The position numbers were made by a program, and so were the translations under genes. Positions 14,705 to 29,736 of a stretch of DNA of 47,109 nucleotides are shown one piece after another. Source of the DNA: Synechococcus sp. HJ21-Hayes (GTDB lineage: Bacteria > Cyanobacteriota > Cyanobacteriia > PCC-6307 > Cyanobiaceae); NCBI RefSeq assembly GCF_024345835.1, contig NZ_JAGQBW010000020.1:1-47109 (forward strand), read 5' to 3'. How positions within the stretch are numbered: position 1 is the stretch's first letter; each line of letters begins with the position of its first letter. The notes beneath the pieces were generated by a model, which saw nothing but the letters and a program-made list of their open reading frames with translations, did no database searches and was not told the DNA's origin.

Positions 14705-14899
14705 GGCTCAGCCAGGGGAGAGGGCTTATTGCGCGCACGCTAGTGGGCACCTGCCAGCCATGCCGCCATCTGCAACACCTGTGAATGGGAGACCCACACG
14801 CCAGCGGCACGTAATCCAGCCTGCGACCCATGACAGGGCGCTGACATCCGCCAGGAGATCCCTACGTTGAGCAGAGATCTCTGCAACGCCAATACCCCG

Positions 14900-15304
14900 A
14901 TGAGCCCAGCCGTGATCCGTCGCGCCATCCACAGCGACCGCTTCCCAACACCAGTGGCCTCCTATAGCCAGGGTTTTCAGCACAACAACACACTGTTCAT
15001 CACCGGGCAGTTGCCCGTCGACCCTGTCACCAACCTCAAAGTCGGCAACGGTGACATCACCGTGGAATCGCGTCAGGTGATGGAGAACATGCGGGCGGTG
15101 CTCGAGGAGGCGGGCTTCGGTTTTGAACATGTGGTGAGCGCCACGGTGTATCTCACCGACATCGACAAGCTCGACACCTTTGATGCGGTGTGGCAGGAGT
15201 ACTTCCCGGACAACCAGGCCTATCCATCCCGGGCCGTGGTGCAGGTGGCAGCACTGGTGCTGGGCATCCAGCTGGAGATTTCCGCCATCGCCATCAAAGA
15301 CTGA
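14900..15304 (+). CDS. RidA (YjgF/YER057c/UK114) family protein
   Basis: RidA proteins hydrolyse reactive enamine/imine intermediates released by PLP enzymes. The 134-residue protein shows the family segments ASYSQGFQHNNTLFITGQ, VVSATVYLTDIDKL and YPSRAVVQVAAL, with the conserved Arg that binds the substrate carboxylate. ATG at 14900 gives the standard family length; a TTG at 14867 would add 11 unlikely residues. It is the first gene of a tight plus-strand run (gaps of 16, 20, 6 and 13 bases to the following genes). Confidence 0.88.
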   Translation: MSPAVIRRAIHSDRFPTPVASYSQGFQHNNTLFITGQLPVDPVTNLKVGNGDITVESRQVMENMRAVLEEAGFGFEHVVSATVYLTDIDKLDTFDAVWQEYFPDNQAYPSRAVVQVAALVLGIQLEISAIAIKD

Positions 15305-15320
15305 CCCCCCTCTACCAACC

Positions 15321-15782
15321 ATGCCTGATCCCTTCAGCCTGGCTCCGGCGCCGGAGTCCTATTGGCATCTCTGGACCGACGACCAGGGCATCAGTCGCCA
15401 GGAGCAATGCACGATCAGCTCCTTCGAGCTCGGCCAACTGGGCCCCGGCGATTCCCCGCAGTTCTCCCGCCCCCTGTTCGATCAGGGCAATGCCTTCGTG
15501 ACCTACCTGCCCGTGGGCTGGACGGCCGACTGGCATGAGAACCACATCCCCAAATGGATCTACGTGCTGCGGGGGGCCTGGTCGGTGGAAAGCATGGATG
15601 GCCGCAAGGTGATCATGCGGGCTGGCGAGTATTCCTTCGGGGGCGACCAGGACTGCATCGCCACACCCGCGGGACAGCGAGGCCACCTCTCCGCCCAGGT
15701 GGGGGATGAACCCTGCGTGCAGCTGATCATTCAGCGCAACGACGAGGCCTGGCGGCGGGCACGGCCGGGGTTCTTCTCCTGA
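15321..15782 (+). CDS. Cupin-domain protein
   Basis: A 153-residue single-cupin protein. The first cupin motif is GWTADWHENHIPKWIYVLRG (His-x-x-His plus later residues), and the second is ATPAGQRGHLSAQ. It could bind a metal through these His residues, but no reaction is evident. The N-terminal half (WHLWTDDQGISRQEQCTISS) is compatible with a cyanobacterial family of uncharacterised cupins. It is the second gene of the RidA - cupin - SMP-30 run. Confidence 0.75.
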   Translation: MPDPFSLAPAPESYWHLWTDDQGISRQEQCTISSFELGQLGPGDSPQFSRPLFDQGNAFVTYLPVGWTADWHENHIPKWIYVLRGAWSVESMDGRKVIMRAGEYSFGGDQDCIATPAGQRGHLSAQVGDEPCVQLIIQRNDEAWRRARPGFFS

Positions 15783-15802: not shown

Positions 15803-16726
15803 ATGGCCAGCACCCACCCCTCCCCCTGCACCGAGAGCTACGACCGGCGCTTTGAGCAGCTGGTGCTGTTCAACGCCGAGCTGGAGCTGCTCGCTGAGGG
15901 CTTCCGCTGGCTGGAGGGGCCGGTGTGGTTCGGCGACCACCAGTGCCTGCTGTTCAACGACATCCCCAACAACCGCACCCTGCGCTGGAACGAACAGCAT
16001 GGGGTGAGCGTGTTCCGCGAGCCCTCGCAGTACGCCAACGGCCAAACCCGCGACCACCAGGGGCGGCTGATTCAGTGCCACCACCAGAGCCGCTGCGTCA
16101 CCCGCCTGGAGCACGACGGCACCACCACCACCCTGGTGAGCCAGGCCGGGGGCCATCGGCTCAACGCCCCCAACGACGTGGTGGTGAAACGGGATGGTTC
16201 GATCTGGTTCAGCGATCCCCTCTACGGCCTGCTCAACGACTACGAAGGTGGCCGCCAGCACTCCGAGCAGCCCGCTGCGCTCTACCGCCTCGAGCCCCAC
16301 ACCGGGCAGGTGCAGGCGATGGCCACCGACTTCGACGGCCCCAATGGCCTGGCCTTCTCCCCCGACGAAAGCCTGCTCTATGTGGCGGAATCCGGGAGCG
16401 CCGGCGTGGCCAATCCGCGCCAGTACATCCGCCGCTTCCAGGTGAGCGCCGATGGCCGCAGCCTCAGCGGTGGCGAGCTATTTCACAAGATCAGCCCCGG
16501 CTGGGCCGATGGCTTCCGGGTGGATGAACAGGGCAACCTCTGGTGCGGCGCTGCCGATGGCGTCCACGTGGTTGCCTCTGACGGCACCCTGCTGGGCAAG
16601 GTGCTGGTGCCCAGGCGTGTGTCGAACCTCTGCTTCGGCGACCGCCACCACTGTCGCCTCTTTCTGTGCGCCTCCACGGCGCTTTACAGCCTGTTCACCA
16701 ACACCCGCGGCGCCCAAACACCCTGA
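15803..16726 (+). CDS. SMP-30/gluconolactonase/LRE family beta-propeller lactonase
   Basis: A six-bladed beta-propeller enzyme of 307 residues. Family landmarks are the metal-site Glu in RWLEGPVWFG, the Asn in NAPNDVVVKRDGSIWFSDP, the loop DGPNGLAFSPDESLLYVAESG and the Asp region GWADGFRVDEQGNLWCGA. Family members open sugar lactones such as gluconolactone, the direct product of sugar oxidation, using a divalent metal. Its placement in an operon that converges on two GMC sugar/alcohol oxidoreductases and a glycosidase supports a role in clearing lactone products. No signal peptide, so cytosolic. Confidence 0.88.
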   Translation: MASTHPSPCTESYDRRFEQLVLFNAELELLAEGFRWLEGPVWFGDHQCLLFNDIPNNRTLRWNEQHGVSVFREPSQYANGQTRDHQGRLIQCHHQSRCVTRLEHDGTTTTLVSQAGGHRLNAPNDVVVKRDGSIWFSDPLYGLLNDYEGGRQHSEQPAALYRLEPHTGQVQAMATDFDGPNGLAFSPDESLLYVAESGSAGVANPRQYIRRFQVSADGRSLSGGELFHKISPGWADGFRVDEQGNLWCGAADGVHVVASDGTLLGKVLVPRRVSNLCFGDRHHCRLFLCASTALYSLFTNTRGAQTP

Positions 16727-17003: not shown

Positions 17004-17429
17004 ATGCATCCCCAACAAACCCTCGATCTGAACGACGCCGCACTGGCCCTGCAGGCCAGCCGCGCCCATGCCGACAGCCACCAGGGGCTGGTGAGCGTTG
17101 CGGTGGTGGATGGTGGCGGCCATCTGCTGGCCTTCCAACGCCTGGACGGTGCCAGCATCTCCAGTGCTGAAACCGCGATCGCCAAGGCCCGCATGGCCGC
17201 CCTGTGCGGCAAGCCCACGGCGGAGATGGAAGCGAGCATCAATGGGCCCCGGCCAGGCCTGTTGCAGCTGGCAGTTCTGCTGCAGCAACCGTCTGCCGCC
17301 ATGGCGGGCGGGCTGCCCCTGCTGATCGGCTCCAGCTGCATCGGAGCCATCGGCGTCTCCGGGATGACTCCGGAACTGGATGCCGCCATCGCCAGTGCAG
17401 GCCTGCAGGCCCTGCACAGCCAACCATGA
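17004..17429 (+). CDS. HbpS/GlcG-like (DUF336) haem-binding family protein
   Basis: A 141-residue protein of the HbpS/GlcG family. The signature is VSVAVVDGGGHLLAFQRLDG, then ISSAETAIAKARMAALCGKP and the closing IGSSCIGAIGVSGMTPELDAAIASAGL. Members bind haem, cobalamin or act beside oxidative enzymes (GlcG lies with glycolate oxidase in many bacteria), but activity is poorly defined. Its gene starts 13 bases after the Nif11 gene and its stop overlaps the next start (ATGA at 17426-17429), so it is translationally coupled to the VOC protein. Confidence 0.85.
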   Translation: MHPQQTLDLNDAALALQASRAHADSHQGLVSVAVVDGGGHLLAFQRLDGASISSAETAIAKARMAALCGKPTAEMEASINGPRPGLLQLAVLLQQPSAAMAGGLPLLIGSSCIGAIGVSGMTPELDAAIASAGLQALHSQP

Positions 17430-18409
17430 ATCTCCCCCACATCCGCAGCCTTGGCTTCACCACGGCCAATGCCGAGCAACTGGCGCACTTCTATGGCGCG
17501 AACCTGGGATGTCAGCCCGGCCGGACCCTCGCCATTGAGGGCGGCCGCTACGCGCAACTGATCGGCCTACCCGGTTCACGGCTGCTGCTCAAGCAGCTGC
17601 ACCTGGGACAGGAACAGCTGGAACTCACCGAGGTGCAGGCCCTGGGCCCAGGCCTCCGGCCCGGCCGGCCCGTGCCCGGCGATTCCCTCAGCTGCGACCT
17701 GTGGTTCCAGCACATCTGCGTGGTGGTCGCCAACATGGACGAAGCGGCAGCGCCGCTCCAGGCCCGCGTGGCGGCGGGAACACTGAGGGCGATCTCCACA
17801 ACCCCTCAGACCCTGCCGAGCTGGAACATCGCCGCTGCCGGCATTCAGGCCTACAAGGTGCATGACCCGGAAGGCCATTGCCTAGAGCTACTGCAGTTCC
17901 CACCTGACAAGGGCGACGCCCGCTGGCATCAGGCGGCCTCCTCGGCGAGCACACCCTTCCTGGGTATCGACCACAGCGCCATCGCCAATGCCGACACGCC
18001 GCGGAGCTGCCGGTTCTACGAAGGGCTGCTGGGGCTGCGGCTGGGGGGCGAGGGCGTCAACAGCGGCCCGGAACAAGACCAGCTCGATGGGCTGGACAAC
18101 ACCCAGGTGCTGATCACGTCCCACCGCTGCTCCCAGGGGGCTGGGGTTGAATGCCTGAACTACCAACAGCCCCAGGGGGGCCGCCCCCTGCCAGCCGATC
18201 AGACCGCGGCCGATCATGCCCACTGGCAGATTCGCCTTGAGGTGCGTGATCTCGATGCGATCAACTCCCAGCTGGAGGCCTACGGCGGCAGCCGGGTAAG
18301 CCCCGGCATCGTGGAGCTCGAGCCAGCCCAGGCGGAGCTGCTGGGCTTCAGCCGTGGCCTACAGGTGCGAGATCCGGATGGCCACCAACTGCAACTGGTG
18401 AGCCCCTGA
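17426..18409 (+). CDS. Two-domain VOC (glyoxalase/dioxygenase superfamily) protein
   Basis: A 327-residue protein made of two vicinal-oxygen-chelate units. Unit 1 (about 5-155) starts SLGFTTANAEQLAHFYGANLG and ends VHDPEGHCLELLQFP; unit 2 (about 168-325) starts LGIDHSAIANADTPRSCRFYEGLLGL and ends VRDPDGHQLQLVSP. The repeated His...Glu positions suit a divalent metal. VOC enzymes include glyoxalases, extradiol dioxygenases and resistance proteins; nothing fixes the reaction here. Neighbouring RidA, cupin and lactonase genes suggest processing of reactive small carbonyl compounds. Confidence 0.82.
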   Translation: MNLPHIRSLGFTTANAEQLAHFYGANLGCQPGRTLAIEGGRYAQLIGLPGSRLLLKQLHLGQEQLELTEVQALGPGLRPGRPVPGDSLSCDLWFQHICVVVANMDEAAAPLQARVAAGTLRAISTTPQTLPSWNIAAAGIQAYKVHDPEGHCLELLQFPPDKGDARWHQAASSASTPFLGIDHSAIANADTPRSCRFYEGLLGLRLGGEGVNSGPEQDQLDGLDNTQVLITSHRCSQGAGVECLNYQQPQGGRPLPADQTAADHAHWQIRLEVRDLDAINSQLEAYGGSRVSPGIVELEPAQAELLGFSRGLQVRDPDGHQLQLVSP

Positions 18410-18470
18410 TCACAGGGAGGTGCAGGCCCAGGCAAACGCCCCTAATTTGCGGCCAGCTAGAGGCCTTGCA

Positions 18471-18968
18471 ATGGAGATCACCGTGGTGGAGCTGCTGGTG
18501 CCAACGGCGCCGTCAACCCTGGCCCAGGCCGCCTTGTTGGTGCTGCGCCTGTTCCTGGGCATCGCCTTCATTCGCCACGGCTGGCCCAAACTGCGCAACC
18601 TGAAAACCTGGGCCACGGCGATGAACACGCCGGAATGGCTCTGTTTTCTCTCCGCAGCCTCCATGTGGGGGGCTGGGATTGCCCTGATTCCAGGACTGCT
18701 CACGCCCCTGGCCGCCCTCGCCATCCTCGTATCCATGGCCTACGCCATGGTGATCGAGATCAAGGCTGGCTTCCCCTGGTTTGCGCCGGATCCCTACCAG
18801 ATTCCAGAGGGCGACTATGTGGGCCCCATGGGGATCGGCGAACCACCGAGCTGGGAGAAGGCCGCCATGTACGTGGTGATGTGCCTGGTCACCATGTTCT
18901 GCGGCGGTGGCCTGTTCTCCCTCGACAACCTGCTGATCGCTGATCTGCTCAGGCTGGCCCTGACTTGA
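18471..18968 (+). CDS. DoxX family membrane protein
   Basis: A 165-residue protein with four hydrophobic segments. The family landmark is LVLRLFLGIAFIRHGWPKLRN, with AASMWGAGIALIPGLLTPLAALAILVSMAYAM following. DoxX-type proteins are small quinone-linked membrane proteins or accessory factors; the name comes from a thiosulfate:quinone oxidoreductase, but most members have no assigned reaction. It sits 61 bases after the VOC gene, probably in the same operon, and 15 bases from the end of the convergent second GMC gene. Context makes a quinone-side accessory role attractive but unproven. Confidence 0.8.
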   Translation: MEITVVELLVPTAPSTLAQAALLVLRLFLGIAFIRHGWPKLRNLKTWATAMNTPEWLCFLSAASMWGAGIALIPGLLTPLAALAILVSMAYAMVIEIKAGFPWFAPDPYQIPEGDYVGPMGIGEPPSWEKAAMYVVMCLVTMFCGGGLFSLDNLLIADLLRLALT

Positions 18969-18983
18969 TGGAGCGGCGGCCGC

Positions 18984-20579
18984 TCAGCGGCCCAAGCGCT
19001 CCACAAGATGCTCACCAACGCGGATGGCATTGGCGATGGCGGTGAGTGAGGGGTTCACCGCTCCGATGCTGGGGAAGAAACTGGTGTCCACCACGTAGAG
19101 ATTGTCGAGGTCGTGGCACTTGCAGTGGATGTCCAGCACGGAGCTGGCGGGATCCGTGCCAAAACGGCAGGTGCCGGCTTGGTGCCCCACAGCAGCGATT
19201 CCCATGGTGCTCTTGAAATAGATCTGGCGTTCCACCAGATGGTTCTTGAGATAGAGGTGATCCAAGACCGACACCAGCTTGTTGTTGAGCTTCGTGGCGG
19301 CCATCTGGTTGTTCGGGGTGTAGCTCAGATGAATCTGACCCTCCGCATTGATCGTGACACGGTTGTTGGGATCGGGAAGATCTTCGCTGGACACCCAGAA
19401 ATCCAGGGCATGCTCGGCGATCTTGTCCATACTCCAGGTGGGCATGAAGAAGGTCTCCTGCGGCACATAGCCCTTCATGATCGAGCCATCTGTCTTGCCC
19501 GTCATCTGGATGTTCCCCATCGGATAGTCAAAGTCTTCCGAGCCGAAGTACCAGTCGTTGATGCACACCGTTTTCTGAAACACGGTGGTATTGGGCTCAT
19601 GGGCCAGGGCCACCATGGCCTTGCTGTTGTGGAACATGTAGTTCCGCCCCACCTGATCTGAACTGTTGGCCAGGCCACGGGGATGCTTGTCGTTGGCCGA
19701 CATCAACAGCAGCCGGGCGCTGTTAGCAGCGCCACAACTCACCACCACGATGTCCGCCGAGTAGCGCAGTGGCTCACCATCACGCTCCAACTCCACCGCC
19801 GTCACCGTGCGGCCGGAGGCATCAGTGATCAGCCGCTTCACCTGGGCGCGGGTAAGCAGGGACACGTTGGACGCCTGCAGCGCGGGGCGCATCGAGCACA
19901 CCTCAGCATCACCTTTGGCATGCACCAGACAGGGGAAACCATCACAGCGGTTGCAGCGAATGCAGCGGCTGAAGGCTGGATTGATTTCATCGAGCATCAC
20001 GCCGCAAGGCGCATGGCTGGGATGCAAGCCAATGGCGCGCAGATCATCCACCAATTTCTGCATCCGCGGTTCATGGGAAATCGGCGGATAGGGGAAGGGT
20101 GCTGAGCTAGGGGGATCCGTGGGGTCTTCCCCCCGCAGCCCATGCACATGGAAGAGCTGCTCGGCCCGCTGGTAATAGGGCTCGAAATCGCTGTAGCGCA
20201 GGGGCCAGGCCGGGGAGATGCCGTCATGGTGGTGCAGCTCTTCAAAATCCCGCTGCCGCAGACGGAAGTGGGCCGCGCCGTACATCTTGGTGGCGCCACC
20301 CACGAAGTAATGGCTACCGGGCTGAAACGGTTTGCCGTGCTGGTCAAACCAGGTGTCCTTCGACACATACCGGCCCTGCTGCATCACCGCATCGGCATCC
20401 CAGTTCTCGCGCTCACGGGGCAACCAATCGCCCCGTTCCAGCACGAGGATCTTCAGACCAGAAGGGGCCAACTGATGGGCCAGGCTGCCGCCGCCAGCAC
20501 CGCTGCCGATGATCAACACATCAAAGTGAGTCTGCGCAGGAACCTGCAGCTGCTCAAGGGACGGGAGAGAGGCAACCAT
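18984..20579 (-). CDS. GMC family FAD oxidoreductase with Cys cluster
   Basis: A 531-residue GMC flavoprotein that oxidises alcohol or sugar hydroxyls. The FAD fold is FDVLIIGSGAGGGSLAHQL (from residue 19), with HYFVGGATKMYGAAHFRLR as the second family region. The catalytic His466 (GHQAGTCRFG) and Asn509 (AVNPSLT) are both present. Unusual for a simple GMC protein, Cys206, 209, 212, 217 and 228 form a C-x2-C-x2-C-x4-C-x10-C group, with Cys192 nearby. The start is ATG at 20579; the open frame runs on upstream but into the previous gene. No signal peptide. It is the last gene of the ARTO - GMC - GH63 block, 62 bases after GH63. Confidence 0.88.
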   Translation of the reverse strand: MVASLPSLEQLQVPAQTHFDVLIIGSGAGGGSLAHQLAPSGLKILVLERGDWLPRERENWDADAVMQQGRYVSKDTWFDQHGKPFQPGSHYFVGGATKMYGAAHFRLRQRDFEELHHHDGISPAWPLRYSDFEPYYQRAEQLFHVHGLRGEDPTDPPSSAPFPYPPISHEPRMQKLVDDLRAIGLHPSHAPCGVMLDEINPAFSRCIRCNRCDGFPCLVHAKGDAEVCSMRPALQASNVSLLTRAQVKRLITDASGRTVTAVELERDGEPLRYSADIVVVSCGAANSARLLLMSANDKHPRGLANSSDQVGRNYMFHNSKAMVALAHEPNTTVFQKTVCINDWYFGSEDFDYPMGNIQMTGKTDGSIMKGYVPQETFFMPTWSMDKIAEHALDFWVSSEDLPDPNNRVTINAEGQIHLSYTPNNQMAATKLNNKLVSVLDHLYLKNHLVERQIYFKSTMGIAAVGHQAGTCRFGTDPASSVLDIHCKCHDLDNLYVVDTSFFPSIGAVNPSLTAIANAIRVGEHLVERLGR

Positions 20580-20641
20580 GGGCTCAGCTAGAGGCCGACA
20601 CGTTGCCCACAAGCTAGACAGCGTTGCAGATTTTGGCTGCC

Positions 20642-23305
20642 TCAGGTAACGGGATAACGACTCAATTGATTGATCATTTTGCAAACCATGGCGCTCCAGC
20701 CCGTCTGATGACTGGCTCCCACACCGCGGCCGTTATCACCATGGAAATATTCGTTGAACTGAATCAGATCACGCCAATGGCGGTCAGATTGGAACAACTC
20801 CACATCACCATTGAAGGGGCGCTGTCCAGCGCCGTTGCGGCGGAACAAATTCACGAGCCGCTGCTCTAGCTGCAAGGAAGCGTCCCAGAGGGTGATCCAC
20901 TGCCCTGAGCGGGTGGGGAACTCCACCATGAAGCTATCGCCGTAGTAGTGGCCAAACTTCTGCAGGGATTCAATCAATAGGAAATTGATCGGCATCCACA
21001 CCGGGCCTCGCCAGTTGGAGTTACCGCCAAACATGGCAACCGGGCTGTCCGCAGGGCTGTAGGCCAGGGTCTGGGTCTGGGATCCTTCTGTAAAGGTGTA
21101 GGGATTGTCCTCATACACCTTGGAGAGGGCCCGGATGCCATAGGGAGAGAGGAACTCGTCTTCATCAAACAGCCGCTCGCAGATGCGCCTGAGCCGATCC
21201 TCCGGCACCAAAGAAAACAGCATTCGGTCGTTCCGCCATTGGCCGAGGTGATCCACCAACCAAGCGGGACGGGTGCGCTCATGCAGAAACCAGGCCAAGC
21301 TCTGGCGCACATCCAGGCAGGGCAAGCGCTTCACCGTATCCACATCAAAGCTGGCCACAGCCAGCAAGGGAATCAAACCGGAAACAGAACGACTGCGCAG
21401 ATATTCCGTGCTGCCATCAGGGCGCTTGATCACGTCGTAGTAGAAGCCATCCTGCTCATCCCAGTTCACATAGCCACGGCTACCTGGGGTATTCAAGGTC
21501 AGGGCAAGCTGCACAAAATCATAAACAAAGCGCTCAGCGATATCGGCATATTCCGGCTCCTCCCGACTGAGCTCCACACTGATATTGAGGAGGTTGAGGC
21601 TGAGCGAGGCCATCCAGGAGGTGCCATCGCATTGCTCGATGTGGCTGCCATCAGCGAGGGGGTAGCGCCGATCAAACACAGCAATGTTGTCGAGGCCGAG
21701 GAATCCCCCTTCGAACACGTTGTCGCCGGAGCGATCATTGCGGTTGGCCCACCAACCGTATTCGAGGATCAACTTGCGCAAGGCAGAGCGCAGGAAGCCA
21801 AAATCGGGCTCTTCGCTGGTCTTGCGATCGATCTGAAAGATCCGCATGGCCGCCCAGGCCCCGATGGGGGGATTGGGATCGGACAGAGCCCACTCGTAGG
21901 CAGGGGTCTGGGCGTTGGGAGCCGTGTAGTGAGGGGAGCGCAGCAACATGCACTGCTCCTTCGCTGTGGCCGGATCGAACACCGCAAAGGCCACAGAGTG
22001 GAACATCAGGTCCCACTGGCAGAAGTAGGGATATTCCCAGGCATCGGGCATCGAGATCACATCATGGGCATGCAGCCGCTGCCACTGGGCGTTCTCAGTG
22101 AGCCAGCGCTGATGCGGTGGAGGCGGTGTGGTGGGATCCCCCGTCAGCCAACGCTGAACACTCCAGCCGTAATACTTCTTGCACCACAACAGCCCTGCGG
22201 CCCCAGAGTTGTGAAGCAGCCGATCATCCTCGGAGAGGTTGGGCACTCGCGACTCAAAAAAGTCGTGCCACTGCTGCTCACGGGTCGTGAAGAGCTGGTC
22301 AAACTCCTCGCCAAAGGCCTGGGCAGAAGCCTCGGATGCTGAGCCGGTGAGCCGTAACTCCAAGGTCCACTCCTCACCAGCGGCCAAGGTGCGCCTCAGC
22401 AGGCGCGCGGCCTTGGTACCGCGTTGCTGGGGATTGATGGCACCCTGGTCGCCATCAATCAGAAACCGGTGAAAGCCATCCTTCTGGAAGGGCTTCGCAT
22501 TGGGCTCGCCAAACAACCGCTCGGTGTTGGTCTCGTTGTCGGTGAAAAGCCAGTCACCCTGCTCGCGGCAGGCCAAGCGATAGGCACCCAGACCACCGCC
22601 GGGATGGGCCAGCACCGCATCGCCTTCCAGCTGCAGGGGGGTCTCCTGCTCATCGGGGTAGCCCCAGCTCCAGGTGTTGCGCAGCCAGAGAGTGGGTAAC
22701 AGGGTGAGTGGAGCCGCTTCGGGCCCGCGGTTCAGCACCCGGATGCGAATGGCAATGTCATCCGGGGAGGCCTTGGCGTACTCGATGAACACATCGAAGT
22801 AGCGGCTCTCATCAAAGATGCCCGTGTCCACCAGCTCATACTCGGGCTGATCGCGACCACGGCGTGCATTTTCAGCAATCAGCTGCTCGTCGGGAAAGCG
22901 CTGCTGGGGGTACTTGTAGAGCCCCCGCATGAAGCTATGGGTGGGGGTATTGGCGATGTGGAAGTAGTAGTCCTTGATGTCCTCGCCGTGGTTACCTTCG
23001 GGGTTACCCAGCCCATAGGGGCGTTCCTTCAGGATCGGGTCCACGCCATTCCAGAGGGCCACCGAAAAACACAGGCGGCACTGGTTGTCGCAGATGCCGA
23101 GCAGCCCGTCTTCACCCCAGCGATAAACCCGGGAACGCGCATGGTCGTGGGGGAAGGACACCCAGGCATTGCCATCGGCGGAATAGTCCTCCCGCACCGT
23201 GCCCCACTGGCGATCGGGCAGATAGCTGCCCCACAGATCCCAGGGCACCTGTTCGTGGTCACGCTCCGCCATACGGCGGAGTTCAGAACCCATGTCGTTC
23301 GTCAC
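20642..23305 (-). CDS. GH63-like glycoside hydrolase (alpha-glucosidase type)
   Basis: An 887-residue cytosolic glycosidase with an (alpha/alpha)6 C-terminal half. Landmarks include QWDLMFHSVAFA, the GGFLGLDNIAVFDRR region, SMASLSLNLL-like motif WMASLSLNLLNISVEL, NWRGPVWMPINFLLIESL and the closing GWSAMVCKMI, as in GH63 glucosidases. GH63 members remove alpha-linked glucose from glycoconjugates or small glycosides such as glucosyl- or mannosylglycerate; the substrate is not shown. GTG at 23305 is supported by GGAGG 6 bases upstream and by the GTGA overlap with the GMC stop (23302-23305), so it is translationally coupled to it. Confidence 0.85.
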   Translation of the reverse strand: MTNDMGSELRRMAERDHEQVPWDLWGSYLPDRQWGTVREDYSADGNAWVSFPHDHARSRVYRWGEDGLLGICDNQCRLCFSVALWNGVDPILKERPYGLGNPEGNHGEDIKDYYFHIANTPTHSFMRGLYKYPQQRFPDEQLIAENARRGRDQPEYELVDTGIFDESRYFDVFIEYAKASPDDIAIRIRVLNRGPEAAPLTLLPTLWLRNTWSWGYPDEQETPLQLEGDAVLAHPGGGLGAYRLACREQGDWLFTDNETNTERLFGEPNAKPFQKDGFHRFLIDGDQGAINPQQRGTKAARLLRRTLAAGEEWTLELRLTGSASEASAQAFGEEFDQLFTTREQQWHDFFESRVPNLSEDDRLLHNSGAAGLLWCKKYYGWSVQRWLTGDPTTPPPPHQRWLTENAQWQRLHAHDVISMPDAWEYPYFCQWDLMFHSVAFAVFDPATAKEQCMLLRSPHYTAPNAQTPAYEWALSDPNPPIGAWAAMRIFQIDRKTSEEPDFGFLRSALRKLILEYGWWANRNDRSGDNVFEGGFLGLDNIAVFDRRYPLADGSHIEQCDGTSWMASLSLNLLNISVELSREEPEYADIAERFVYDFVQLALTLNTPGSRGYVNWDEQDGFYYDVIKRPDGSTEYLRSRSVSGLIPLLAVASFDVDTVKRLPCLDVRQSLAWFLHERTRPAWLVDHLGQWRNDRMLFSLVPEDRLRRICERLFDEDEFLSPYGIRALSKVYEDNPYTFTEGSQTQTLAYSPADSPVAMFGGNSNWRGPVWMPINFLLIESLQKFGHYYGDSFMVEFPTRSGQWITLWDASLQLEQRLVNLFRRNGAGQRPFNGDVELFQSDRHWRDLIQFNEYFHGDNGRGVGASHQTGWSAMVCKMINQLSRYPVT

Positions 23306-24816
23306 AGGGCCTCCAGGATGCGCTCGCCGATGCGCAGGGCGTTAGCGATCACCGTGAGGCCGATGCCCACACCTGGACAACTGGGGAACAGGCTGGCATC
23401 CGCGATGTAGAGGTTGGCCAGCTCATGGCTCTTGCCCTGGAGATCCACCACCGAGGTGGCGGGGTTGGAGCCCATGCGGCAGGTGCCGCACACACTGCCC
23501 AACACGGTGAGTGGTGCCTCGCCACGGGGATGGGTGGGGGCCGGTTTCACCACATGGGTGAGGGGGTCAGCCTCCACCTGCTTGAGGGTGTCAATCCAGC
23601 GATACACCAGGCGGTCGTGGGCCTCACGGTTGTTGGCCACAAAGTGAATCTCTAGGTGGTTGCCCCGCAGGGCTACCCGATTGTGGGGATCAGGCCGCAT
23701 GGCACTCATCGCCCACCAGGCCACGGAACGGGAGGCCAGCTGCTCCAGCCCGAAAGTGGGCATGAGCTTGGTCACCAGCGACAACACCGGCGGGGATTCA
23801 GCAAACAGCGCGTCCTGAAGGACGCCGCCACCGCTGTGGATCGAGCCCAGCGGGAAACCCACGTTCTGATCGCCCCAGTAGTAGTCGGTGATGCCGAAGC
23901 TGCGGCCGTAGCGGCCGGAATTGGGGGCGGCAGCCAGCTGGATGATGGAGGTGAGCTGGGGCTTCATCAGGTTGCGACCCACCTGATCAGAGCCATTCGA
24001 CAGACCACGGGCGTGATGGTCCGTAGCGGAGCGCAGCAGGATCTCGGCGCTGTTCACGGCACCGGCGGCCAGCACCACCACATGGGCACTGAACAGCCAG
24101 GCGTGGCCATCGATCTCCACCTCCACGGCCCGCACTTCGGTGCCGCTGGGATTCACGTGCATCCGCCGCACCTTGGCGCGCTCCCGCACGGTCACCGTGG
24201 CCACCTTGCGGGCCAGATCAACACCGAACAATTCGGCATCACCGGTGGGATCCAAGTGGGATTCCGACCAGCTCAGGGGCAGGTCGTAGGGATGGCTGCC
24301 ATGGCGCTCGAGGGCCACGCGCAACTCCTGCATGAATGGCTCCACAGGCCGCGGACGGGCGGGGTAATCGCCGCTGCGGGGAGGCTCGGTGGGATCCACG
24401 CCAGCCACACCATGAACGCGGTAGAGCTGTTCAGCACGCTCGTAAAAGGGAGCCAGGTCGGCGTAGCTGATCTCCCAGCTGGGGGTCGTTCCGTCCTGCA
24501 GCTGCACACCGCTGAACTCCTGCTCACGCATGCGCTCCAACACGCCCCCCCAGATCTTGGTGTTGCCGCCGAGGGCATAGATCGTCTGCGGAGAGAAGGG
24601 ATCGCCATCCGTGCCGAACCACTGCTCCCCGGGGTGATAGCGGTCCTTGCGGAACAGATCCACATCGGCCACGTTCTGATCCGCCAAGGGCATGGCACCG
24701 CCACGTTCCAACAGCAGCACGGTCTTGCCGGAGGAAGCCAACTGCCCAGCGAGGGTGCCACCGGCAGCGCCGCTGCCGATCACAATCACGTCGTAATGGT
24801 TGTCGTCGATGATCAT
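23302..24816 (-). CDS. GMC family FAD oxidoreductase lacking the usual catalytic His/Asn
   Basis: A 504-residue GMC-type flavoprotein. The FAD fold is YDVIVIGSGAAGGTLAGQL at the N-terminus, followed by YALGGNTKIWGGVLERMR and the C-terminal LYIADASLFPSCPGVGIGLT. In GMC enzymes the active-site pair is His (H-x-x-GTCRMG) and His/Asn (VNPTLT). Here the matching positions read GSVCGTCRMG (Ser441 for His) and VGIGLT (about 482-487, no Asn), so it may use other residues or not act as a classical oxidase. ATG at 24816 has AGGAGC 8 bases upstream. It begins 16 bases after the ctaE stop, so it belongs to the oxidase operon. Confidence 0.85.
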   Translation of the reverse strand: MIIDDNHYDVIVIGSGAAGGTLAGQLASSGKTVLLLERGGAMPLADQNVADVDLFRKDRYHPGEQWFGTDGDPFSPQTIYALGGNTKIWGGVLERMREQEFSGVQLQDGTTPSWEISYADLAPFYERAEQLYRVHGVAGVDPTEPPRSGDYPARPRPVEPFMQELRVALERHGSHPYDLPLSWSESHLDPTGDAELFGVDLARKVATVTVRERAKVRRMHVNPSGTEVRAVEVEIDGHAWLFSAHVVVLAAGAVNSAEILLRSATDHHARGLSNGSDQVGRNLMKPQLTSIIQLAAAPNSGRYGRSFGITDYYWGDQNVGFPLGSIHSGGGVLQDALFAESPPVLSLVTKLMPTFGLEQLASRSVAWWAMSAMRPDPHNRVALRGNHLEIHFVANNREAHDRLVYRWIDTLKQVEADPLTHVVKPAPTHPRGEAPLTVLGSVCGTCRMGSNPATSVVDLQGKSHELANLYIADASLFPSCPGVGIGLTVIANALRIGERILEAL

Positions 24817-24832
24817 GGTTGAGCTCCTGACA

Positions 24833-25426
24833 TCAGGCCTGCCACACGTAGAGAAGGAGGAAGAGCACCACCCAGATCACATCCACGAAGTGCCAGAACA
24901 GAGAGGTGGCCTGAACGCCCTGTTCGCCGCCGTCGTAGTTGCCGGGGATGAAGGATTTGATCAGCATGATTCCCATCAACAGGATGCCCGTGGCCACATG
25001 CAAGCCATGGAAACCCGTGAGCAGGTAGAAGGTGCCGCCGAAGGTGCCTGAGGTGAAGCCGAACTTCAAGCCGCTCCACTCCACCGCCTGGCCATAGAGG
25101 AAATAGGCCCCCATGGCCATGGTGAGCAGCCAGAAGCCTCGGAACAGCCAGAGCTTCTCCTTGGCCTTGAAGTGCTCAGCCACCACTATGGCGCCGGAGC
25201 TGGAGAGCAACACCACGGTGTTGAGCAGCGGGGTGCGCCACTCGAGGCCATCCACACCAGCCGGCAGCCAGTTGAGGGCCGAGGTTTTGAGGATGGCGTA
25301 GCCACTGAAGAACGCCAGGAAGATGACGCTCTCAGAGCACAGAAAGATGATGAAGCCGGTGAGATTGTGCTTGGGATGCTCGCTATGCCCGTGGGCTGGA
25401 GCCGGGGTAGGGATCGCGCTGGTCAT
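24833..25426 (-). CDS. ctaE: Cytochrome oxidase subunit III, ARTO type (CtaE2-like)
   Basis: Haem-copper oxidase subunit III, 197 residues with about five transmembrane helices, the short five-helix type. Characteristic pieces are GFIIFLCSESVIFLAFFSGY, TFYLLTGFHGLHVATGIL and the closing SLFWHFVDVIWVVLFLLLYVW, which include the conserved Glu/His residues of subunit III. It stabilises the subunit I-II core. ATG at 25426 has AGGAGG 8 bases upstream and overlaps the ctaD stop by 4 bases. It is followed after 16 bases by the GMC gene. Confidence 0.92.
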   Translation of the reverse strand: MTSAIPTPAPAHGHSEHPKHNLTGFIIFLCSESVIFLAFFSGYAILKTSALNWLPAGVDGLEWRTPLLNTVVLLSSSGAIVVAEHFKAKEKLWLFRGFWLLTMAMGAYFLYGQAVEWSGLKFGFTSGTFGGTFYLLTGFHGLHVATGILLMGIMLIKSFIPGNYDGGEQGVQATSLFWHFVDVIWVVLFLLLYVWQA

Positions 25427-27099
25427 GCCGTTGCCTCCTGCAGCTCCAGACGCCGTTCAATCTCCTCCTGGTGTTCCACGAGCGGCTCACCGGAGCCATA
25501 GCCATAGGGACGGCTGATCACGGTGGGGACCTCATCCTCAAAGTTTTCCACCGGTGGGGGAGAGGGCAGCAACCACTCCAGACCGATGGCATTCCAAGGG
25601 TTATGGCCGGCCTTGGGTCCGCGAATCCAGGAGCTCAGCATGTTGAGCAGAAAGGGAATGATGGACACACCGAGCAGAAAGGCCCCCAGACTGGCGATCA
25701 CGTTCCAGAAGGTGAACTCAGGGTCGTAACTGGACACCCGCCGGGGCATCCCCATCAGGCCGAGGGGATGCATGGGCAGGAAGTTGAGGTTCGCCCCCAC
25801 GAAGGTAAGCAGACAATGCAGTTTGCCGAGGCCCTCGTAGGGCATCCGACCCGTGAACTTGGGAAACCAGTGGTAGATGGCCGCAAAGATGCCCATCACC
25901 GCTGCGCCATAAATCACGTAGTGAAAATGTCCCACCACGAAATAGGTGTTGGACACGTGAATATCCACCGGAACCGTGGCCAGCATGATGCCGGTGATGC
26001 CGGCAAACACGAAATTAAACAAGCCCCCCAAGCAGAACAGCATCGGGGTTGTAAGCCGCAGCTTGCCTCCCCAGATCGTCCCCAGCCAGGCGAACACCTT
26101 CACGCCTGTGGGAACGGCGATCAGCATGGTGGTGCCCATGAACAGATCACGCATCCATTGGGATACGCCGCTTGGGAACATGTGGTGCACCCACACCACC
26201 AGCCCCAGACCCACAATGATGAAGGAGGCTAGGGCCACATAGACGTAGCCAAACAGTGGCTTGCGGCTGTAAACAGGAAAGATCTCGGAGAAGATTCCGA
26301 ACACCGGCAGGATGATCACATACACGGCCGGATGAGAATAAAACCAGAAGAAGTGCTGATACAGCACCGGATCTCCACCGCCCTCGGCCCGATAGAAACT
26401 GGTGCCGAAACTGAGATCCATCAGCAGCATGATGGCGCCACCGGTGAGGGCAGGCAGACCGATCAACTGAAGGCTTTGTGCCGCCAAGGCCGTCCAGCAG
26501 AACACCGGCATGCGGAACAGGGTCATGCCCGGTGCGCGCATGCGCAGGATGGTGGTGACGAAATTCACCGCCCCCATGATCGAGGAGATGCCGGACAGGG
26601 CGACCGCCAAGATCCAGAGGAACTCGCCATTGATGAAGTGGCCGAGGGGGTTCTGAATGCTCACCGGTGGATAGGACCACCAACCCGCCGCCGCAGGACC
26701 GCCCGGCACAAAGAAACTGGATACCAGCAGTAGGGAGAACACGGGGACCAGCCAGAAGGCCGCTGTGTTAAGCCTCGGGAAGGCCATGTCGGGCGCGCCG
26801 ATCATGGTGGGGATCAACAGGTTGTTCAGCCCGTTCAGCACCGGAAAGATGAACAGGAACAACATGATGGTTCCGTGCATCGTGTAGATGCCGTTGTACA
26901 CCGTGCGATCCACCAGATCTGAGGCCGGCGTGATCAGTTCACCCCGGATGATCATGGCCAGAAAGCCACCCACCAGGAAATAGAAGAACGCCAGCACGAT
27001 GTACTGAATGCCAATCACCTTGGCATCGGTGCTGAAGCCGAAATAACGGGACCAACCAGCGGGCGGTTTGGGATCGGCAGGGAAGGTGGCGCTGGTCAT
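25423..27099 (-). CDS. ctaD: Haem-copper oxidase subunit I, A2-type, ARTO-like (CtaD2)
   Basis: The 558-residue catalytic subunit that reduces O2. Haem and CuB ligands are all present: His75 (TMHGT), His256 with the cross-linked Tyr260 (FYSHPAVY), His305-His306 (VHHMF), and His391/His393 (VGHFHY). The K-channel Lys334 (PTGVKVFAW) is present. Helix VI reads YSHPAV instead of GHPEVY, which places it in the A2 class of haem-copper oxidases that uses Tyr/Ser rather than Glu at the end of the D path. A polar tail after residue 500 is cytosolic. It lies 4 bases after ctaC and overlaps ctaE by 4 bases. Confidence 0.95.
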   Translation of the reverse strand: MTSATFPADPKPPAGWSRYFGFSTDAKVIGIQYIVLAFFYFLVGGFLAMIIRGELITPASDLVDRTVYNGIYTMHGTIMLFLFIFPVLNGLNNLLIPTMIGAPDMAFPRLNTAAFWLVPVFSLLLVSSFFVPGGPAAAGWWSYPPVSIQNPLGHFINGEFLWILAVALSGISSIMGAVNFVTTILRMRAPGMTLFRMPVFCWTALAAQSLQLIGLPALTGGAIMLLMDLSFGTSFYRAEGGGDPVLYQHFFWFYSHPAVYVIILPVFGIFSEIFPVYSRKPLFGYVYVALASFIIVGLGLVVWVHHMFPSGVSQWMRDLFMGTTMLIAVPTGVKVFAWLGTIWGGKLRLTTPMLFCLGGLFNFVFAGITGIMLATVPVDIHVSNTYFVVGHFHYVIYGAAVMGIFAAIYHWFPKFTGRMPYEGLGKLHCLLTFVGANLNFLPMHPLGLMGMPRRVSSYDPEFTFWNVIASLGAFLLGVSIIPFLLNMLSSWIRGPKAGHNPWNAIGLEWLLPSPPPVENFEDEVPTVISRPYGYGSGEPLVEHQEEIERRLELQEATA

Positions 27100-27103
27100 G
27101 GCT

Positions 27104-28042
27104 TCAGCCGTCGTGGGGGAGTGAAGGGGATCCGGGAACGTTCACCTGGGGCGGTGGAGCGGGCGGCACCGTGGCCCAGCCCGGGTTTTTCTGCTGCTGA
27201 CGCTGGCTGAATTCCTCGCTGGCCAGGCTCAAGCCCGCTTGCAGGGGTTGGCCGGAGGCCTGTTTCAACCAGGCGGCATAATCGTCCTGGCTGTGCACCA
27301 GCACATCGGCCTGGTTGGCAGCGAACCAGGTGCCGCTGAACTGGGAATCCCGCAGGCGATAGCGACCTTCACGGGTGGGGGTGAGGCTGAAATCAATCGC
27401 CCTACCGGGAATCACATCCTGCTTCAAGCGGAAGGCGGGGATGTAAAAGCCGTGCAGCACGTCGTCGGAGGTAAGCCGGAAGGTCACCGGTTGGTCCACG
27501 GCCAGATGCAACTCCGTGGCAGACACGTTCCTCCCTGGATAGCGAAACTCCCAGGACCATTGCCTGGCAATGACTTCCACCTGCTCCGCAGGCAGGCGAT
27601 CACCTGGATAGCCGCCCTGAATCTCCGTGGAGTTGTGGGCGTGAATGTGCTCCATCGGGCCCAGCACCCCCAGCGTGTGGTTCACCCGCATCGCATACAC
27701 GGCAATGCCCATCACCAGCACAAAAGGAATGGCGGTCCAGATCACTTCGAGCTTGGTGTTGCCCTCGATCGGAACGGCATCACTGTCGTCGTATTTATCG
27801 GCGCGGTTGAACACCATCACCCAGAGCATCACCGACACCACAGCGGCAAACACAAAGGTGCCGAGGGCGGTTTCGAAGCTGAATAGGCCATCCACCAGTG
27901 GGGCGGCGTTGGAGGCCTGCACCGGTAGCCAGTGGTAAGCCTGCTGGCCCATCCAGTGGCTGAGCAGCACCAGCACGCCAACCCAGAGGGACACGCCCAG
28001 AACCGCTGAGCGGTTGATGGGTCGAGGCGAGGAGGTTGTCAT
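27104..28042 (-). CDS. ctaC: Oxidase subunit II, CuA-less, ARTO type (CtaC2-like)
   Basis: A 312-residue subunit II with two N-terminal helices (about 13-35 and 58-80) and a third hydrophobic stretch near 98-117, followed by a cupredoxin domain. The loop Trp region (QWSWEFRYPG) is conserved and His197 (LHGFYIPAF) survives, but the CuA C-x3-C-x3-H-x2-M signature is D232-x3-S236-x3-F240-x2-N243. CuA therefore cannot form. This matches what is known of cyanobacterial ARTO and of quinol oxidases. A Pro-rich C-terminal tail follows. ATG at 28042 has GAGGAG nearby. It is preceded 14 bases upstream by DUF2231 genes. Confidence 0.93.
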   Translation of the reverse strand: MTTSSPRPINRSAVLGVSLWVGVLVLLSHWMGQQAYHWLPVQASNAAPLVDGLFSFETALGTFVFAAVVSVMLWVMVFNRADKYDDSDAVPIEGNTKLEVIWTAIPFVLVMGIAVYAMRVNHTLGVLGPMEHIHAHNSTEIQGGYPGDRLPAEQVEVIARQWSWEFRYPGRNVSATELHLAVDQPVTFRLTSDDVLHGFYIPAFRLKQDVIPGRAIDFSLTPTREGRYRLRDSQFSGTWFAANQADVLVHSQDDYAAWLKQASGQPLQAGLSLASEEFSQRQQQKNPGWATVPPAPPPQVNVPGSPSLPHDG

Positions 28043-28056
28043 GGTGAAGAATCTCC

Positions 28057-28701
28057 TCAGGGAAGGGCGGTATGCAGATCAGCCCCGGCCTGGAGCAACT
28101 GATCAGCGGCTATATGAACCCCGAACTCGGCGGCCAACTGGGCACCGAGGGTGCCGTGCAGACCGAGCAACGCAAACATCACCACCCCCACGCCCAGGTA
28201 GAGCCACTGCACCTGGCGGCCCATCTCCCGGCGCCACACGAAGCGTTGAAAGCCACGCCAAACGGTCATGCCGGTGATGATCAGCAGCAGCAGTACGCCG
28301 CCAACCCCATGCCAAAGCATGGTGGTCATGCTGCCGAGGCCGAAGGTGCTAGTAACCCCCGGCAGGGCCACCGCAGTGAGCATTTCGTAGAAGCCGGCCG
28401 CCACGGTGAAAAAGGTCACCAGGCAGCACACCAGTAGGTTGTACCAACCCACATCGTGGAAGCCACCCCGGGTGATGGGCAGAGCCAGGAAGCGGAACAC
28501 CCGCTTCTCCAGGGGATAAAGCGCACCGACCACGTCGAAGGCGATGGCGATCACGAACAACCCGATGGTGAGGTGCACCAGGTTTGGGTGGATCGGCAAC
28601 GTGTAGGGGAGGCCATTGGCTCCCAATGCGGAGGCGATCTGATCAATCGGCGCCTCTGCTGGGCTGTACGCCAGTGCCATGAGGAGCGGGAGGGCAGCCA
28701 T
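28057..28701 (-). CDS. DUF2231 membrane protein, second of pair
   Basis: A 214-residue membrane protein with about five hydrophobic segments. Conserved-looking features are LPIHPNLVHLTIGLFVIAIAFDVVGA, GFHDVGWYNL, MLWHGVGGVLLLLIITGM and LLGLHGTLGAQL, with His residues inside or at the edge of helices. This is the DUF2231 layout, and pairs of such genes are known before the alternative oxidase genes in several cyanobacteria. Paired His residues suggest a b-type haem, but that is inference. It overlaps the previous DUF2231 stop by one base and runs into ctaC after 14 bases. Confidence 0.78.
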   Translation of the reverse strand: MAALPLLMALAYSPAEAPIDQIASALGANGLPYTLPIHPNLVHLTIGLFVIAIAFDVVGALYPLEKRVFRFLALPITRGGFHDVGWYNLLVCCLVTFFTVAAGFYEMLTAVALPGVTSTFGLGSMTTMLWHGVGGVLLLLIITGMTVWRGFQRFVWRREMGRQVQWLYLGVGVVMFALLGLHGTLGAQLAAEFGVHIAADQLLQAGADLHTALP

Positions 28702-29252
28702 CAGATCAGCCCCTCTCGCATGGCCGCCACCACCTTCACGGTGTGGAGGCCATAGGTCCAGATCAACTTGTCGCCAAGAACAACCTGCACCAGCACAAGG
28801 GCACTCACCAGGCCGCCGGCCCCCAGAAAGGGAAGGGGGAGGGTTTCGGGATCGCGGTTGCGCAGCACGTAGCGCCAGCCGGTGAGCAGCGACAGAATTC
28901 CCGCCAGCGACCAGCCGATGGTGGTGTGGATGTCGAGGATGTTGCGGGCTGCCCCATAGGGAGAGGCGAGGCCCGCCTCCACCTGGCCAAAGATGATCGC
29001 CACGAAGATGGCTCCGGTGGCGAACAGCAAGTTCCAGAAGCTCACCTCATAGAGAGCTGGCTTGCGGAGCAGAACCCCTGCCAGATCGAACACGAAGGCG
29101 ATCAGCGCCATCGCGATCACGAAGTGAACGACGATCGGATGGATCGTGTCCATCCAGGGCAGGTTGTGGTCGTTGAGCGGCGGTAGCAGCTCAAGCATGG
29201 GAAAGCCCGTGCTGAATCCACCCACGCTGGGCAGTCCCACGGGCTTCGTCAT
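28701..29252 (-). CDS. DUF2231 membrane protein, first of pair
   Basis: A 183-residue membrane protein with about four hydrophobic segments: TIHPIVVHFVIAMALIAFVFDLAG, then FWNLLFATGAIFVAIIFGQVE, DIHTTIGWSLAGILSLLTGW and a last helix before TYGLHTVKVV. The His pattern matches the second DUF2231 protein, with which it shares a one-base overlap. ATG at 29252 gives MTKPVGLPSVGG; a TTG at 29273 would only add seven residues. It is the first gene of the oxidase operon, 76 bases downstream of the tRNA-Leu gene, so its promoter lies in that gap or upstream of the tRNA. Confidence 0.75.
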   Translation of the reverse strand: MTKPVGLPSVGGFSTGFPMLELLPPLNDHNLPWMDTIHPIVVHFVIAMALIAFVFDLAGVLLRKPALYEVSFWNLLFATGAIFVAIIFGQVEAGLASPYGAARNILDIHTTIGWSLAGILSLLTGWRYVLRNRDPETLPLPFLGAGGLVSALVLVQVVLGDKLIWTYGLHTVKVVAAMREGLI

Positions 29253-29327
29253 GCGGCTGTCATGAATTGCCAATCAGCGCAACATGACCCTGGCCCCAAG
29301 GCTGGCGGTTGGCGTGAGTGGCCTCGA

Positions 29328-29411
29328 TGGGAGCAGGGGGACTTGAACCCCCACAACGTTGCCGTCTGCGGATTTTAAGTCCGCTGCGTCTACCAATTCC
29401 GCCATGCTCCC
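29328..29411 (-). tRNA. tRNA-Leu (anticodon UAA), intronless
   Basis: On the minus strand an 84-base class II tRNA folds completely: acceptor GGGAGCA/TGCTCCC plus discriminator A, D stem GCG/CGC with loop GAATTGGTAGA, anticodon stem GCGGA/TCCGC around CTTAAAA (anticodon TAA), a long variable arm and T stem GGGGG/CCCCC with TTCAAGT. CCA is not encoded. Many cyanobacteria carry a group I intron in the anticodon loop of this tRNA; none is present here. Confidence 0.97.
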
Positions 29412-29484
29412 AGGCGCTGGAAGCGGGGTCTCCCAGCCTTCCAGGCACCCATCCTAGATTTGGAGCACGATCTGATCCGGCACC

Positions 29485-29736
29485 GTGCCTCTGCCAGGTT
29501 TTCTCAGCTCCATCTCCCTGGACACGCTGCTGGTGCTGGGGGCTTACGCAGCCCTGGGCTTTGCCTATCTGGTGGCGGTGCCCCTGGCCCTGATGGCCTG
29601 GATGACCAAGCGCTGGACCACCATGGGCAAGATCGAACGCACGGGTGTCTACGGCCTGGTCTTCCTGTTCTTCCCCGGCCTGATCCTGTTCGCTCCCTTC
29701 ATCAACCTGCGCATGGCCGGTCAGGGCCAGGGTTGA
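29485..29736 (+). CDS. ndhL: NDH-1 subunit L
   Basis: NdhL is a small, cyanobacteria/chloroplast-specific membrane subunit of the NDH-1 complex, needed for cyclic electron flow and respiration. The 83 residues contain two helices, [24 protein letters not shown] and [23 protein letters not shown], with the family linker [14 protein letters not shown] between them. The start is GTG at 29485, since no in-frame ATG gives the right length. Its stop overlaps the DUF3007 ATG by one base (TGATG). The ndhL - DUF3007 - trpA order is typical for picocyanobacteria. Confidence 0.92.

Follow-up and report, generated by a model that had tools for sequence, protein, structure and literature searches.

We analysed a window of 47,109 nucleotides, i.e. 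a stretch of Synechococcus sp. HJ21-Hayes DNA in its full length (assembly GCF_024345835.1, contig NZ_JAGQBW010000020.1, positions 1 to 47,109), from a source genome of 2.94 Mb that is 97.7% complete. Eight minus-strand genes, with families assigned by Pfam and NCBIfam, follow each other in the transcription order DUF2231a, DUF2231b, ctaC, ctaD, ctaE, GMC_B, GH63 and GMC_A, and sequence comparison divides them into two joined modules. Module 1 (29.2 to 23.3 kb of the window) is assigned to the type-1 operons encoding an alternative respiratory terminal oxidase (ARTO), i.e. a haem-copper oxidase lacking CuA, and carries in addition GMC_B, a flavoprotein of GMC fold. Module 2 (23.3 to 19.0 kb) comprises GH63 and a second GMC protein, GMC_A. 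Building on the observed architecture, conservation, modularity, residue losses and recurrent co-location, we tentatively propose, as a reading somewhat short of probable, that module 2 belongs to a glucoside-oxidation cassette feeding electrons toward the ARTO. The data support a link between a glucose-type oxidation cassette and a CuA-less oxidase. The dedicated GMC partner and the modular sugar add-on appear to be new, the type-1 ARTO operon itself being known.

The arrangement is compact. A preliminary description of the window, made from its sequence alone, had reported the eight same-strand genes, and the spacings it gave were reproduced: 16 bp separate ctaE and GMC_B, GH63 (GTG start at 23305) and GMC_B (ending at 23302) share 4 bp, and 62 bp lie between GH63 and GMC_A. 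That description had named a strong promoter or terminator separating the GMC gene from ctaE, together with unlinked expression, as speaking against linkage; neither element was found there, and the 16-bp gap leaves no room for either. A pattern scan of 18300-29700 yielded no sigma-70-like promoter (2.2 expected) and 15 terminator-like matches (7.1 expected), which are sited inside genes, with none between ctaE and GMC_B. The eight genes may share a common transcript.

Within the family of the source organism, sampled with 151 genomes, 64 relatives and the genome itself contain a strong ARTO-type ctaC. The order DUF2231a-DUF2231b-ctaC-ctaD-ctaE is kept in 63 of the 64 fetched loci, the remaining one being a 5.8-kb piece that ends after ctaD, and GMC_B directly follows ctaE in all 63 loci with ctaE (tblastn gaps of 0-76 bp), an arrangement far beyond chance. 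GH63-GMC_A is attached to GMC_B in 30 of the 64 loci, two more being cut by contig ends, so the order ctaCDE-GMC-GH63-GMC, whose conservation in relatives had been named beforehand as a check, recurs. In 29 loci ARTO-GMC_B is followed by at least 6.8 kb devoid of GH63 (two more end too soon), and GH63-GMC_A is located elsewhere in six fetched genomes (L099-L102, L104 and L105); in G484 and G490 GMC_A lies elsewhere by its coordinates, only the place of GMC_A being seen and not that of GH63. Since GH63-GMC_A and ARTO-GMC_B occur apart, they represent two modules, and one functional unit is ruled out. All 42 family genomes in which GMC_A was found also carry ARTO genes or GMC_B. In the 38 fetched GMC_A loci, the gene for the membrane protein DoxX is adjacent and convergent in 15, further off in 8 and not seen within the fetched stretch in 15.

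Two loci of the family, L099 and L100 (genomes G141 and G101), show the sugar cassette beside trpA-DUF3007, a pair of genes that borders the ARTO operon in the window, and have ARTO-GMC_B approximately 10 kb away.

The best evidence for a functional link of sugar cassette and oxidase comes from a different ARTO clade. This second clade (ARTO-2) was separated from ARTO-1 by eye from the identity of ctaC and ctaD to the window, without a tree (ctaD 59-64% identical for ARTO-2, at least 67% for ARTO-1), and has no GMC_B. Seven of its 21 loci, belonging to families f7, f11 and f15 (L259, L260, L265, L269, L143, L148 and L246), contain DoxX, SGL, GH63 or GMC_A within 6.5 kb; the phylum search gave 30 loci of ARTO-1, and none of them does (Fisher p 0.001, relatedness ignored). 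Operons of CuA-less oxidases therefore appear to have acquired the sugar cassette on more than one occasion, and the cassette-oxidase link drawn in the preliminary description gains from this. As to the samples compared, the mean flank searched was 10.6 kb for ARTO-2 and 9.1 kb for ARTO-1; L148 and L246 are of the same genus; L259 and L260 were cut to include a known GMC_A, yet are positive by DoxX and SGL alone; L257 holds both ARTO kinds; L122, one of the 30 ARTO-1 loci, belongs to the window's own family; some listed ARTO-1 loci were left unfetched, and L125, having no ctaD or ctaE on its piece, was left out. Of 20 loci fetched from outside the family, 8 have GH63 no more than ~1.6 kb away from GMC_A, with GH63 being further off in L234 and L246.

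Across 386 cyanobacterial genomes, 97 contain an ARTO-like ctaC (E <= 1e-55) and 48 a close GMC_B, all 48 being among the 97. At E 1e-80 GMC_B matched 53 of the 386 genomes; five of these matches (G324, G350, G371, G455 and G457; E 3e-100 to 2e-82) sit at the positions of GMC_A-type genes and were set aside, leaving the 48. In 47 of the 48 genomes ctaC and GMC_B share a strand and the start of GMC_B is 2.3 to 5.2 kb downstream of ctaC, the exception being L126, in which ctaC and GMC_B are on different contigs and ctaD-ctaE-GMC_B is contiguous; a few loci outside the family have other sequence of up to 2.7 kb between ctaE and GMC_B. The 49 ARTO genomes without a close GMC_B belong mostly to family f7, in which only G315 and G426 have the gene. 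A scan of named contigs gave 177 candidates, and in all of the best 80 of these ctaE is upstream of GMC_B, with GH63 following in 62; these best 80 include Synechococcus WH7803, RCC307 and WH5701 and Vulcanococcus limneticus, the closest being L154, a Synechococcaceae metagenome assembly with 98% identity over GMC_B. The operon is also present on contigs labelled as metagenome assemblies of Bifidobacterium breve and Prochlorococcus marinus MIT 9215 (L229 and L230), which are likely misbinned or mislabelled. L257 (G451) carries two ARTO operons in tandem, one per clade by identity, with a glyoxalase gene in between, and the locus L122 is an intact ARTO-GMC_B operon in the 1.7-Mb genome G424 of the genus g17, whose other listed members show no ARTO match.

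The assignment of the oxidase relies on its residues. All 103 ARTO-type CtaC sequences have Asp and Ser in place of the two CuA cysteines, which are kept in the other oxidase of the same genome (contig C10, L109); the best solved relative of CtaC is subunit II of the B. subtilis aa3-600 quinol oxidase. CtaD retains six His, a Tyr and a Lys in 99 of 99 sequences, which we take to be the haem/CuB ligands and the K-channel lysine. Loss of the CuA cysteines with retention of the haem/CuB ligands identifies the oxidase as being of ARTO type. Taking E. coli CyoB as reference, none of the residues R71, D75, H98 and Q101, presumably forming the bo3 quinol site, is present in any ARTO CtaD (0/99). Both DUF2231 proteins show a pattern of conserved histidines that would suit haem ligation, i.e. 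H45, H50, H116 and H177 of DUF2231a (open reading frame numbering from 29273; at least 95% of 101 rows) and H38, H43, H131, H182 and H196 of DUF2231b (at least 95% of 95 rows).

The type-1 ARTO (Qox/Cox3) operon of Anabaena PCC 7120 is, according to the accessible part of the source, alr2729-alr2730-coxB3-coxA3-coxC3, and the enzyme is described there as a plastoquinol oxidase or possible iron reductase (PMC6616624). The window shares with it the two small genes followed by coxBAC, the lack of CuA and the presence of haem and CuB ligands, and differs in having GMC_B directly downstream, plus GH63-GMC_A; the missing bo3-type quinol-site residues are unmentioned in the accessible part of that paper. 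Judged by loci such as L139-L142, alr2729 and alr2730 are probably DUF2231 genes, and two small genes upstream of coxBAC are also found in most fetched ARTO loci of other families. The statement of the preliminary description that no system with this gene set has been described hence stands in part: two genes plus coxBAC correspond to the published operon as far as the accessible text goes (PMC6616624), and for the GMC partner no paper linking a GMC protein to ARTO was among the matches listed, in a search largely leaving subscription journals uncovered.

Oxidase genes of related loci differ in unequal measure along the operon. L072 and L076 (G101 and G123) are 62% identical in ctaC and 88% in ctaD, compared to 94-98% in DUF2231a, DUF2231b, ctaE and GMC_B, so the genes of subunits II and I appear to have been swapped as a pair within an otherwise retained operon. 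In the window's genus, L083 and L085 (G134 and G064) combine a distant ctaC (52-53% identical to that of the window) with a near GH63 (82-84%), whereas L051, L052 and L054 (G009, G115 and G092) have a near ctaC (71-72%), a contrast which we read from these identities as block replacement of oxidase genes.

The most likely role of GMC_B is an accessory one, either as electron input to the ARTO or as its docking partner, and not that of a second sugar oxidase. A catalytic His/Asn pair is a criterion for GMC oxidoreductases in the accessible part of PMC6509819. At the second catalytic position GMC_B has Gly or Ser in all 65 family rows, never Asn or His, and Ser, Pro, Gly or Thr in all 23 rows from the phylum search (labelled non-f1, one of which, L122, is a member of the window's family). 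The first position is variable (Y/F/S/G/H/N and others), with His in 6 of the 65 and 6 of the 23 rows. The family group set beside the phylum-search rows had 69 rows and includes a third, distant GMC of the genome (L110; G000:C4:36994-37638), in whose surrounding 15 kb no ARTO gene was seen. The pair is missing in every relative examined, which removes GMC_B as a candidate sugar oxidase. The cysteine segment of GMC_A type is absent, while the FAD-binding motif and a GGN(T/S)KIW segment are nearly invariant. Ratios of nonsynonymous to synonymous substitution rates (dN/dS) of 0.04-0.13 in nine pairs, with similar values for GMC_A (three pairs) and ctaE, exclude a decaying pseudogene. In a tree whose root is not trusted owing to two very long outgroup rows, and of which we use one branch only (L234 left out), this branch with support 100 parts GMC_A and its distant homologues (36 rows) from the ARTO-linked GMC proteins, suggesting that the catalytic pair was lost, probably long ago, together with the joining of the oxidase.

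GMC_A resembles sugar dehydrogenases. In a sequence search its nearest PDB entries are FAD glucose dehydrogenase (E 7e-36) and also fructose dehydrogenase, and it shares with these enzymes (PDB 6a2u, 8hdd and 7w2j) the His/Asn pair and a cysteine motif in the matching segment, which in GMC_A reads C-x2-C-x2-C-x4-C; it differs from them in cysteine spacing and in having no annotated hitch-hiker or cytochrome c nearby. His, Asn and all four cysteines are present in 39 of 39 family rows (33 from a first alignment and 6 added later, including L055), and the FAD motif is invariant in 15 rows; a 34-row alignment also held L113, an unrelated GMC protein (26% identity) with His/Asn but without the cysteines. 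His and Asn are kept in all 21 distant homologues. No export signal was seen by eye. The claim of the preliminary description that the flavoproteins oxidise sugar thus fits GMC_A, given its residues and its glucose/fructose dehydrogenase kin, and fails for GMC_B. In mycobacteria the GMC dehydrogenase MftG links mycofactocin to respiration, as the accessible part of PMC11778925 states, giving a precedent for a GMC protein as electron input to respiration; both GMC proteins described here, however, fall well short of the score cut-offs for MftG.

The hydrolase resembles GH63 alpha-glucosidases (processing glucosidase I and E. coli YgjK) and MGH1-like hydrolases, with PF03200, the C-terminal domain of GH63, at 35.1 bits (cut-off 22.4) and a second domain, PF22422, also over its cut-off, and with GH63 alpha-glucosidase I and YgjK ranking first in a fold search with a predicted model (mean predicted local distance difference test score, pLDDT, of 66). 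It differs from them in that a single-sequence search of the PDB found no match at E 0.001, the profile search giving weak ones, and the substrate can therefore not be transferred from solved relatives. Glucosylglycerol, suggested earlier as the stored substrate, is unsupported: the glucosylglycerol-phosphate synthase model TIGR02398 has no match in the genome itself at its 97.7% completeness and exceeds the cut-off in 12 of the 42 GMC_A-bearing family genomes. For glucosyl-3-phosphoglycerate synthase (NF010496, a single model that may miss cyanobacterial forms) the best match in the genome reaches 63.6 bits with a cut-off of 262 and is closer to HpnB-type transferases. Our preferred guess is free glucose released from an alpha-glucoside. 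Genes for short-chain dehydrogenases/reductases (SDRs) are located next to GH63 or between GH63 and GMC_A in all six Pfam-tested loci (L236-L239, L242 and L245), those of L238 and L239, the two run against NCBIfam, passing the glucose 1-dehydrogenase model NF005559, and a MIP channel gene is near GH63/GMC_A in three tested loci. GMC_A is thus often found near GH63 and a glucose-1-dehydrogenase-like SDR elsewhere too, which again agrees with the proposed sugar link. A second GH63 paralogue (~50% identical) stands in tandem after GMC_A in L053, L055 and L088.

These data are consistent with a model for which we infer the substrate, the electron path, the cluster and the cytoplasmic location as well as both the step from sugar to membrane and the step from membrane to ARTO. 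GH63 would act in the cytoplasm and split an alpha-glucoside, setting free glucose or a sugar like it, which GMC_A would oxidise at its FAD. The electrons, possibly after passing a cluster held by the cysteines, would enter the membrane via DoxX, the quinone pool or both, while the SMP-30 lactonase encoded nearby would open the resulting lactone. The ARTO would finally hand the electrons to oxygen, with GMC_B acting as accessory electron-input or docking partner.

Several findings weigh against this model. GMC_A lies apart from ARTO in 8 family genomes, and 7 of 25 non-family genomes with a strong GMC_A (E < 1e-170) have no ARTO match; together with the 29 family loci without GH63, this also contradicts the single respiratory unit of the preliminary description. 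Its electron route via quinone finds no support in the residues, CtaD lacking those of the bo3 quinol site throughout. FAD glucose dehydrogenase has quinone-reducing and cytochrome subunits, of which no counterpart was seen in the operon, and neither small hitch-hiker nor cytochrome c subunits were among the 18 annotated proteins of 14.8-32.4 kb. The third cysteine of the motif is Phe in 5 of the 21 distant GMC_A rows and in L148, and such Phe-type homologues adjoin DoxX/SGL or ARTO-2 (L148, L243, L246, L247, L250 and L251), making the cluster less convincing there. The AlphaFold model of GMC_B is poor (pLDDT 51 from 18 rows), so its FAD site rests on sequence motifs.

The variable catalytic positions of GMC_B in an otherwise strongly conserved protein under low dN/dS, and its persistence in the 29 loci with no GH63 downstream, would also fit a structural, assembly or regulatory ARTO subunit that binds FAD without being catalytic, with the sugar cassette merely co-regulated, e.g. 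for dark or mixotrophic growth, and no direct electron path; a precedent is provided by Mimivirus GMC proteins, which form a structural shell and show FAD density according to the accessible part of PMC11042495. We consider this unlikely, although worth keeping in mind, because the near-invariant FAD-binding motif and GGN(T/S)KIW segment fit a working flavin and because the cassette recurs beside ARTO-2, which has no GMC_B. The occurrence of GMC_A elsewhere in 8 family genomes could instead mean that module 1 functions in iron(III) reduction or in protection from oxygen, roles proposed for ARTO of other cyanobacteria, with the sugar genes being passengers that came to lie behind ctaE by chance in a single lineage. 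We hold this to be improbable, since the cassette turns up independently next to operons of ARTO-2 and is confined, within the family sample, to genomes that carry ARTO.

We likewise regard as improbable that plastoquinol has no input at all and that GMC_B donates electrons from its FAD to b-type haems in the DUF2231 pair, from which they reach CtaD, forming a dedicated flavoprotein-cytochrome b-oxidase complex with its own donor. The absence of the CuA cysteines in all CtaC and of the bo3 quinol-site residues in all CtaD sequences, the conserved histidines (four in DUF2231a, five in DUF2231b) and the restriction of close GMC_B to ARTO genomes (48/48) argue for such a complex. Against it, 49 of the 97 ARTO genomes, among which are nearly all those of f7, and the second ARTO clade have no GMC_B, which can therefore not be the sole donor; haem binding by DUF2231 is guessed from conserved His; and ARTO is described as oxidising plastoquinol in the accessible part of PMC6616624. 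A related and bolder idea, which we rate as quite improbable, is that cyanobacterial ARTO takes its electrons neither from cytochrome c nor, in the manner of bo3, from plastoquinol, but forms the oxygen-reducing end of a dedicated complex in which GMC_B, a repurposed GMC flavoprotein, and in some lineages also the glucose-type dehydrogenase GMC_A feed CtaD directly via haem-bearing DUF2231 proteins. If true, picocyanobacteria would possess a private sugar-to-oxygen route apart from the photosynthetic plastoquinone pool.

To our knowledge, the role and the electron donor of ARTO are unsettled, and the present data offer three handles on both. These are a GMC subfamily linked to ARTO, present only in ARTO-bearing genomes of the sample and lacking the catalytic pair, the joint absence of CuA and bo3 quinol-site residues across 99 to 103 sequences, and the repeated association of one sugar-oxidation cassette with oxidases lacking CuA. 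In freshwater relatives of marine Synechococcus, this poorly understood oxidase is combined with an unusual flavin protein of its own and, in many strains, with enzymes that seem capable of splitting and oxidising a sugar, which provides a way to test the role of the oxidase.

Table 1. Genes of the two modules and of the converging plus-strand set, with positions in the window.
Feature	Position	Strand	Family evidence
DUF2231a, His-rich membrane protein (opens the ARTO operon)	28701..29198	-	Pfam PF09990 E 3e-35
DUF2231b, His-rich membrane protein	28057..28701	-	Pfam PF09990 E 1e-35
ctaC, ARTO subunit II without CuA cysteines	27104..28042	-	PF00116/PF02790
ctaD, ARTO subunit I	25423..27099	-	PF00115 E 5e-151
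ctaE, ARTO subunit III	24833..25426	-	PF00510 E 1e-29
GMC_B, ARTO-linked GMC-fold flavoprotein without canonical His/Asn pair	23302..24816	-	PF05199/PF00732 above cut-off
GH63 / MGH1-like alpha-glucosidase	20642..23305	-	PF22422 + PF03200 above cut-off
GMC_A, sugar-dehydrogenase-like GMC with His/Asn pair and C-x2-C-x2-C-x4-C	18984..20579	-	PF05199/PF00732
DoxX membrane protein, convergent with GMC_A	18420..18968	+	PF07681
Double glyoxalase-fold protein	17426..18409	+	PF00903
HbpS-like protein	17004..17429	+	PF03928
SMP-30/gluconolactonase-like lactonase	15803..16726	+	PF08450 E 7e-43
Cupin	15315..15782	+	PF07883
RidA family protein	14867..15304	+	PF01042

Two of the starts given in Table 1 were chosen by comparison with relatives. 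DUF2231a most likely begins at the ATG at 29198 rather than at 29252, judging from the conserved MLELLPPLNDHNLPW, and GMC_A most likely at the ATG at 20579, which gives the 62-bp gap to GH63, a longer open reading frame having a TTG start at 20684. On the plus strand, the genes for RidA, cupin, SMP-30-like lactonase, HbpS-like protein, double glyoxalase and DoxX converge on GMC_A, in agreement with the lactonase and DoxX set placed at this end in the preliminary description, the stop codons of DoxX and GMC_A being 15 bp apart.

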